The notes under the pieces were generated by a model. That model was given only the letters and a program-made list of their open reading frames with translations. It made no database searches and was not told the origin of the DNA. A stretch of DNA of 64,000 nt. Origin: an uncultured Acidimicrobiales bacterium (GTDB lineage Bacteria > Actinomycetota > Acidimicrobiia > Acidimicrobiales > SHLQ01). Numbering within the stretch: the stretch's first letter is position 1; every line of letters begins with the position of its first letter. The DNA lies in NCBI GenBank assembly GCA_938038785.1, contig CALHTB010000048.1:1-64000 (forward strand), read 5' to 3'. The translations under genes and the position numbers were made by a program. Shown piece by piece: positions 2,503 to 26,293 of the stretch.

Positions 2503-3144
2503 ATGAAGAACCTAAAGAACCTCTCACTCATCGGCGGCGGCGCTCTCGGCGCAGTTGCACTGACACTCGGAGCTGCCGGTGTAGCCGGCGCTCAAGACGA
2601 GGGTCCAACGCTCGACGAGCCAGCGCCAGTCGAAGAAACTGTCGAAGACGACGCTCGCCCAGAGCGCGGTGACCGCGACGCTCGACGCCAAGCAATTGTC
2701 GACCAGCTCGTCGAGGACGGCGTGATCACCGAGGAACAGGCGGAATCGGTAAGCGAAGTTCGTACTGCCTTGCAAGAGCAGCGAGAAGCCCAACGGGCCG
2801 AGCGCCTTGGCGAGATTGCCGACGCAATCGGCATTGATGTCGAAGACCTTGTTGCGGCCAAGGATGCCGGAACTCCGCTGGCCGAGATCGCCGGTGACAA
2901 CCTCCCGGCAGTTGTTGACGTGCTGGTCGACCGGGCAACCGATCGCATCGAGCAAGCTGTGACTGATGGACGGCTTACCCAAGAGCAGGCAGACGAGAAG
3001 CTCGCTGGTCTTGACGAGCGCATTGAAGCTCGCCTCGAGAATGGCGGAGGCTTCGGCAACAAGGGCGAAGGCCGACGAGGCAAGGGGCATCGAGGACACG
3101 GCCCTCGCGGCGCCGACGCCCCCGCCGAGACCGCAACTGCCTAG
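2503..3144 (+). CDS. Secreted acidic/helical protein with D-G-x-(I/L)-T-x-E-Q-A repeats
   Basis: The start chosen is the ATG at 2503, after GAAGGAAG. It gives MKNLKNLSLIGGGALGAVAL and a signal peptide with a likely cut after GVAGA (about residue 30). The frame is open further upstream, but that extension lacks a ribosome site. The mature part is acidic and helical. Two related segments, DGVITEEQA and DGRLTQEQA, each follow an amphipathic helix, the pattern found in small exported SHOCT-like or YckD-like proteins. The C-terminus is Gly/Arg/His-rich (GRRGKGHRGHGPRG) and may bind metal or polyanions. The gene diverges from a two-component operon with a shared putative operator, so it may be a target of that system. 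Exact function unknown. About 213 residues. Confidence 0.8.
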   Translation: MKNLKNLSLIGGGALGAVALTLGAAGVAGAQDEGPTLDEPAPVEETVEDDARPERGDRDARRQAIVDQLVEDGVITEEQAESVSEVRTALQEQREAQRAERLGEIADAIGIDVEDLVAAKDAGTPLAEIAGDNLPAVVDVLVDRATDRIEQAVTDGRLTQEQADEKLAGLDERIEARLENGGGFGNKGEGRRGKGHRGHGPRGADAPAETATA

Positions 3145-3330
3145 CGCGTGATATTGCCTGATGCTGCCTAAAGCAGCGTGATACTGCCTAACCGATAATG
3201 GGTTTCTTACCTTTCCTTCAGGAAACGCTCAGGAACCACTTGCTTGCGTCTCGGACTGTATGGACGGCAAACAGCAAGAGTGAGGCGGCGGACGCTTATC
3301 AGGAATCTCGAGCTGCAGGCGCCAAAACGT

Positions 3331-25879: not shown

Positions 25880-26293
25880 ATGGCTATCCGATCCGTAAAC
25901 GAGATGATGGCGGCAGCGCGGGCTGAGATCTCCAACCTCACCCCGGCCGAATCCAAGCGGCGTGCCGACGAGGAAGGCGCCCTCCTCGTCGATATTCGTG
26001 ATGTACGTGAGCTTCAGAAACTCGGAGTCATCCCTGGAGCAAAGCATGCACCCCGGGGCATGCTCGAATTCTGGGTCGACCCAGAGTCGCCGTACCACGA
26101 CCCGTTCTTTGCTCAGGACTGTGAGTTCATCTTCCATTGAGCCGCCGGAGCCCGGTCAAGTTTGACCGCCAAGTTGCTTCAGGACATGGGGATGGCCAAG
26201 GTCTCCCACATCGACACCGGCTTTACCGGCTGGGTCGAGGACGGCCTCGAAGTCCAGCCCTACGACGAGTGGAAAGCCGCCAAGAACGGCTAG
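25880..26293 (+). CDS. Rhodanese-like sulfurtransferase with in-frame TGA at the catalytic Cys (candidate selenoprotein)
   Basis: One continuous 138-codon frame from ATG 25880 to TAG 26291-26293, broken only by TGA 26138-26140 at codon 87. Before it: LLVDIRDVREL (about 35-45), GAKHAPRGMLEFW and CEFIFH. After it: AAGARSSLTAKLLQDMG, VSHIDTGFTGWVEDG and a short tail. This is a complete single rhodanese domain. The usual active loop is (F/Y/H)-C-x-x-G-x-R-S, so TGA falls exactly where the persulfide-forming cysteine belongs. Either TGA is read as selenocysteine, or a TGC/TGT to TGA mutation killed the gene. No second stop or frameshift is present, and a hairpin follows the TGA. A further Cys81 precedes it. 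Sec machinery is not in the window. Confidence 0.7.
26141..26170 (+). promoter_or_regulatory. Candidate bacterial SECIS hairpin
   Basis: CGGTCA (26153-26158) pairs with TGACCG (26163-26168) around loop AGTT (26159-26162). There are 18 nt between TGA and the loop. Bacterial SECIS elements have a short apical loop with a G in its first two positions, 16-37 nt after the UGA, and this one complies. The stem codons TCA, AGT and TTG are ones this genome otherwise avoids in favour of TCG, AGC and CTC. Confidence 0.5.

Follow-up and report, generated by a model that had tools for sequence, protein, structure and literature searches.

A rhodanese gene of Acidimicrobiales with a UGA codon predicted to encode selenocysteine at its catalytic position

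Does an in-frame TGA at the catalytic codon of a bacterial rhodanese gene encode selenocysteine (Sec), or does it mark a damaged gene? The question is raised by a 64,000-nucleotide stretch of DNA from an uncultured Acidimicrobiales bacterium (hereafter, the window), which belongs to a 73% complete MAG (G000) that was searched by family. We put the probability that the gene is a true selenoprotein gene, with UGA 87 decoded as Sec, at about 0.92. This reading is drawn from sequence comparison: the UGA is kept across four families, a SECIS hairpin follows it, selection acts on the downstream protein, and the genome carries a Sec-decoding apparatus. The features of the locus are as follows.

25880-26293, plus strand: predicted selenoprotein gene, a single-domain rhodanese of 137 amino acids including Sec87; stop codon TAG at 26291-26293
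25940-26239, plus strand: rhodanese domain PF00581, residues 21-120 (Pfam match, model pLDDT 95.7, Foldseek match to 2hhg)
26138-26140, plus strand: TGA codon 87, predicted to be read as Sec; relatives have Cys at this catalytic position in the rhodanese loop
26138-26155, plus strand: active-site loop of six residues, U-A-A-G-A-R (residues 87-92)
26153-26168, plus strand: putative bacterial SECIS hairpin, with stem CGGUCA (26153-26158) / UGACCG (26163-26168) and apical loop AGUU (26159-26162)

The plus-strand translation of 25880-26293 reads MAIRSVNEMM...CEFIFH-[TGA]-AAGARSSLTAK...VSHIDTGFTGWVEDGLEVQPYDEWKAAKNG-TAG, and the TGA at 26138-26140 is its sole interruption, as the initial annotation had stated. 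The read-through protein matches the Pfam Rhodanese model PF00581 over residues 21-120 of 137 (E 3.9e-15, 56.6 bits; gathering cut-off 22.2 bits). In the alignment with relatives, the TGA stands opposite their invariant catalytic Cys, in agreement with the earlier proposal that it takes the place of this residue in the rhodanese loop. The loop U87-A-A-G-A-R92 has the C-x4-R form of the active site with Sec replacing Cys, and the non-TGA relatives examined all have Cys there. Annotation under the standard code yields an 86-residue fragment of this protein.

An ordinary pseudogene or a sequencing error has some points in its favour. Cys codons TGC and TGT become TGA by a single base change, one or the other stands at this position in nearly all distant relatives, and the assembly is an incomplete MAG. 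Orthologues were searched in the 11 genomes of the genus, then in the class, the order and all GTDB species genomes. The same in-frame TGA gene is present in six of the 11 genus genomes, namely the window's own and G005, G006, G004, G002 and G007, whose rhodaneses are 86%, 75%, 71%, 61% and 61% identical to it, respectively. A further genome of the genus, G003, has an orthologue with TGC at the catalytic codon, and the remaining four carry distant rhodaneses only. Altogether, the searches gave 13 separate TGA loci, spread over four families of the order (f1, f20, f22 and f72), all with the TGA at exactly the equivalent of codon 87 and diverging to about 60% protein identity. Around 118 distinct relatives have TGC or TGT at this position; the TGA is shared by close relatives, and Cys is found in those further away. 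Acidimicrobiales MAGs make up the named relatives, together with many Alphaproteobacteria for the Cys forms, and three genomes (G237, G618 and G631) have Sec and Cys copies side by side.

Some apparent further cases were rejected. Four genomes of family f91 (L195-L197, L205) had been flagged as having a TGA inside the gene, but their catalytic codon is TGC. The catalytic codon in G1019 is likewise TGC, and its TGA is the terminal stop. One Cys-form relative (L094, in G089) has a single in-frame TAA within the matched stretch.

Both halves of the gene evolve as protein-coding sequence. Pairwise Nei-Gojobori dN/dS for the pairs listed was 0.03-0.22 before the TGA and 0-0.46 after it; these values are rough, as several pairs have a nearly saturated dS, and all are well under 1. 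The half beyond the TGA is thus under purifying selection. With the catalytic codon alone masked, the 13 Sec forms fall into one clade (98/91) within the Cys forms of Acidimicrobiia, and this nesting suggests that the change went from Cys to Sec. Masking the hairpin codons as well gives a best tree with two changes, so that the Sec form may have arisen once or twice.

In bacteria, Sec is inserted when SelB with Sec-tRNA(Sec) binds a hairpin behind the UGA. Such a hairpin, which did not figure in the initial annotation, is the strongest single item for the Sec reading. In the element at 26153-26168, a stem of 6 bp closes a 4-nt loop whose second position is G, with U next; the spacing from the UGA to the loop is 18 nt, and the MFE is -8.5 kcal/mol (34 nt). 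The published bSECIS model allows a loop of 3-9 nt, a stem of 4-16 bp, G within the first two loop positions, a spacing of 16-37 nt and an MFE of at most -7.5 kcal/mol (PMC13188914), and the hairpin lies within all of these limits. Its motif, GGWCAAGTTTGWCC, occurs once in the window, where 0.06 occurrences are expected. The pattern CGGWCA-AGUU-UGWCCG is present in 13/13 TGA forms, and the loop block AAGTTT is found in none of the 118 Cys forms.

Across the alignment of hairpins, 97.2% of cells are paired; sliding the partners lowers this to 17-50%. A compensatory swap between U-A and A-U (four versus eight distinct sequences) is seen at one stem pair and no other, with coordinated changes of Ser and Thr codons in the two arms. 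In two orthologues the basal pair of the stem is a C-A mismatch, and another orthologue has one wobble. Folding 56 nt with flanks against shuffled sequences was uninformative, as the hairpin region was not unusually stable in that comparison (z 0.17).

The hairpin also leaves its mark on the protein. Codons +5 (CGG), +7 (AGT) and +8 (TTG) are invariant among the 13 Sec sequences while +1 to +4 vary, and codon +7 encodes Ser in all 13, versus Ala in 122 of 126 Cys forms. Given these frozen codons and the split between Ser and Ala, the RNA element appears to dictate the protein sequence at this site. The locus would thus offer a view of a SECIS element altering its own protein, from Ala to Ser.

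These observations decide against the point mutation from TGC or TGT that the initial annotation had kept as its alternative. The 13 TGA orthologues rule out a mutation or assembly error, as do the purifying selection behind the TGA and a specific hairpin that is kept in every TGA form, is absent from Cys forms and has frozen codons beneath it. The chance of a pseudogene or error is accordingly negligible. A subtler reading is that the UGA is in part a real stop, either as a selenium-sensing switch between the 86-residue and full-length products or as a site of readthrough with another amino acid. Sec codons are generally known to terminate in part, and the frame 25880-26140 has no other lesion. 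Yet a product that ends at residue 86 would stop just before the catalytic residue and lose one third of the fold, and purifying selection acts on both halves, making this reading very improbable. The earlier proposal of a single-domain selenorhodanese is, by comparison, supported by the orthologous TGA codons, the hairpin, the selection and the Sec machinery described below.

The Sec genes looked for in this genome were recovered in part. SelB scored 285.7 bits against a cut-off of 242.25, tRNA-Sec (anticodon TCA) 66 bits against 47, and SelD 267.4 bits against 125, the last within a fused ORF; selA was not found in the assembly. The contig carrying selB ends 81 bp upstream of that gene, and each of the ten sister genomes has selA immediately upstream of selB. 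The gap is thus probably one of assembly in a 73% complete MAG. The contig (C52) breaks at the place where selA ends in the sister genomes, and this terminal stretch (3105-3186, the end of L069) consists of imperfect GTCGAC-type repeats (reading VDRKCRQ...). All 11 genomes of the genus have selB. An examination of 56 genomes found tRNA-Sec in 50 and SelA in 55, the one exception for SelA being the window's own genome.

UGA is very probably decoded as Sec in a second protein of this genome, judging from an FdhA-like formate dehydrogenase gene (L237, C9:118872-120737) with a single TGA in the classical R-U-HAPS Sec motif. That TGA is followed by a hairpin of the fdh type, whose loop contains GGTCT. 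An FdhA-like copy with one TGA is present in nine of the 11 genus genomes. The genus also has two types of SelD (L229, 1402-3891, minus strand; L225-L228). The window's genome and several sister genomes encode it in a long fused ORF without a TGA, the upstream part of which, in the window's genome, looks by eye like an NADH-dehydrogenase-type flavoprotein; the SelD genes of G001, G002, G003 and G007 have an in-frame TGA (GAG-U-GCK).

What would a Sec rhodanese do? An AlphaFold2 model built from 39 sequences has a pLDDT of 95.7 and a pTM of 0.89, versus a poor model (pLDDT 37.7) from the single sequence. In it, Sec87 sits between a strand (83-86) and a helix (91-102), the usual position of the rhodanese active site. 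The closest solved structure is 2hhg (Foldseek TM 0.87-0.90, 42% identity; profile E 1.5e-42), and model and match together place the protein in the alpha/beta rhodanese fold. 2hhg is RPA3614 of Rhodopseudomonas palustris, an uncharacterised protein of the same subfamily and length but with a catalytic Cys. The single-domain rhodaneses GlpE, YgaP and Sud share the fold and the active-site position; they are Cys enzymes, with 26-31% identity in the fold alignments. The residue two before Sec87 is Phe or Leu in the Sec forms. Other Cys residues are absent from 12 of the 13 Sec forms, leaving Sec as the sole Cys/Sec residue.

From these features we lean towards a sulfurtransferase or persulfide carrier without a conserved resolving Cys. 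SelB with Sec-tRNA(Sec) would bind the hairpin 18 nt past UGA 87, and Sec would be inserted. The product would be a rhodanese of ~15 kDa whose selenolate sits where a beta strand ends, within the anion-binding loop. Sec87 would then attack a sulfane-sulfur donor (thiosulfate, polysulfide or the persulfide of a desulfurase), and the sulfur would be held as Se-S(-) before being passed to a thiol or other acceptor. Since 12 of the 13 forms have no other Cys, resolution would depend on a thiol or thioredoxin from outside, not on an internal selenenyl-sulfide.

Sec is reduced and oxidised more easily than Cys, and the rhodanese scaffold might instead serve thiol or persulfide redox chemistry, such as persulfide or peroxide reduction or Se-dependent sensing, with no transfer of sulfur. 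Characterised selenoproteins are mostly redox enzymes (PMC9312934), and some rhodaneses are persulfide or thiol redox domains, with YgaP and persulfide-reductase fusions among the fold matches of the model. However, the loop is the standard six-residue loop of sulfurtransferases, a conserved second Cys is absent, and two Sec copies adjoin genes for sulfur-anion transporters. We regard the redox reading as rather unlikely.

Selenium itself could be the cargo, carried as Se-Se or Se-S-Se to SelD. A precedent is the protein selenopersulfide formed from rhodanese, selenite and GSH, proposed as a selenium donor to SelD (Ogasawara et al. 2001, as cited in PMC10298544), and this organism produces selenophosphate and contains at least two selenoproteins. 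The distribution of the gene argues otherwise. All 11 genus genomes have selB, but five of them lack the Sec gene, and with SelA in 55 of 56 genomes the Sec rhodanese is evidently not needed for Sec synthesis. In addition, it is not near sel genes, and Cys orthologues are common in Alphaproteobacteria. Selenium delivery to SelD therefore fits poorly and is improbable. Also doubtful is a broader version, in which the protein would be a dedicated carrier of selenium or of sulfur species poorly handled by Cys rhodaneses. If true, its hosts, several of which also have a Cys paralogue, would gain a new Se-dependent step in sulfur or selenium trafficking. Because the subfamily contains both Sec and Cys forms, in some cases within a single genome, and includes a solved Cys homologue (2hhg), the benefit of Sec to a sulfurtransferase is directly testable.

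Rhodanese selenoproteins have been listed since the metagenome surveys (PMC1088965, PMC2398784), and a 'rhodanese-related sulfurtransferase' recurs among selenoproteins (PMC9312934, PMC5029168, PMC2398784). One rhodanese selenoprotein family was assigned to 24 organisms (PMC5029168). More recently, five rhodanese-like selenoprotein forms were described, two of them with UxxG (PMC13188914). These two, forms 2 and 4 (MBM9537886.1 and MCY3690685.1), combine PF00581 with UxxG, and the present protein, which has U-A-A-G, resembles them in domain and motif. Acidimicrobiia are not mentioned in PMC13188914; a text search for papers that mention selenocysteine together with Acidimicrobiia returned one, on a sponge metagenome. 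The protein is thus less novel than the initial annotation implied, as its type was already catalogued (PMC13188914, PMC5029168, PMC2398784). On sequence grounds, the Acidimicrobiales Sec rhodanese is a new, well-supported lineage of this known type.

This lineage falls outside the curated NCBIfam selenoprotein models NF041203 and TsoB. NF041203 (rhodanese_LYCAU, rhodanese-related (seleno)protein) shares the rhodanese domain, but the profile match is weak (20.8 bits against a cut-off of 115). Its Sec lies in a CxU motif, whereas the catalytic site here stands alone with Phe or Leu two residues before Sec, which sets the protein outside that family. TsoB (NF045694), a rhodanese/DsbD fusion-like selenoprotein, also combines a rhodanese domain with Sec. 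Its model, however, spans 572 positions with two Sec residues in UxxxxU and a fused part, in contrast to the single domain of 137 amino acids found here, and the match of 15.4 bits against a cut-off of 805 excludes membership.

Gene neighbourhoods of the rhodanese loci showed no conserved partner and so say little about the substrate. Neighbours in the window include gyrA and gyrB (named from their translations), a TPR protein and a PD-(D/E)XK nuclease. None of the defence-gene models matches the rhodanese, and an Rfam scan around the gene returned nothing relevant. In two genomes the Sec rhodanese has a transporter gene nearby, which weakly supports a sulfur role. In G002 it is a TauE/SafE gene for a sulfur-anion exporter, oriented divergently from the rhodanese; in G233 it is a Sulf_transp gene. 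The G233 locus (L213, 2-4600) also includes an ABC permease and a methyltransferase-like ORF, all on the same strand as the Sec rhodanese and in one run with it. Finally, five of 17 loci (L212, L214, L215, L222 and L224), with Sec as well as Cys forms among them, have a gene resembling CoA-transferase III close to the rhodanese; as this family is abundant, the proximity may be due to chance.
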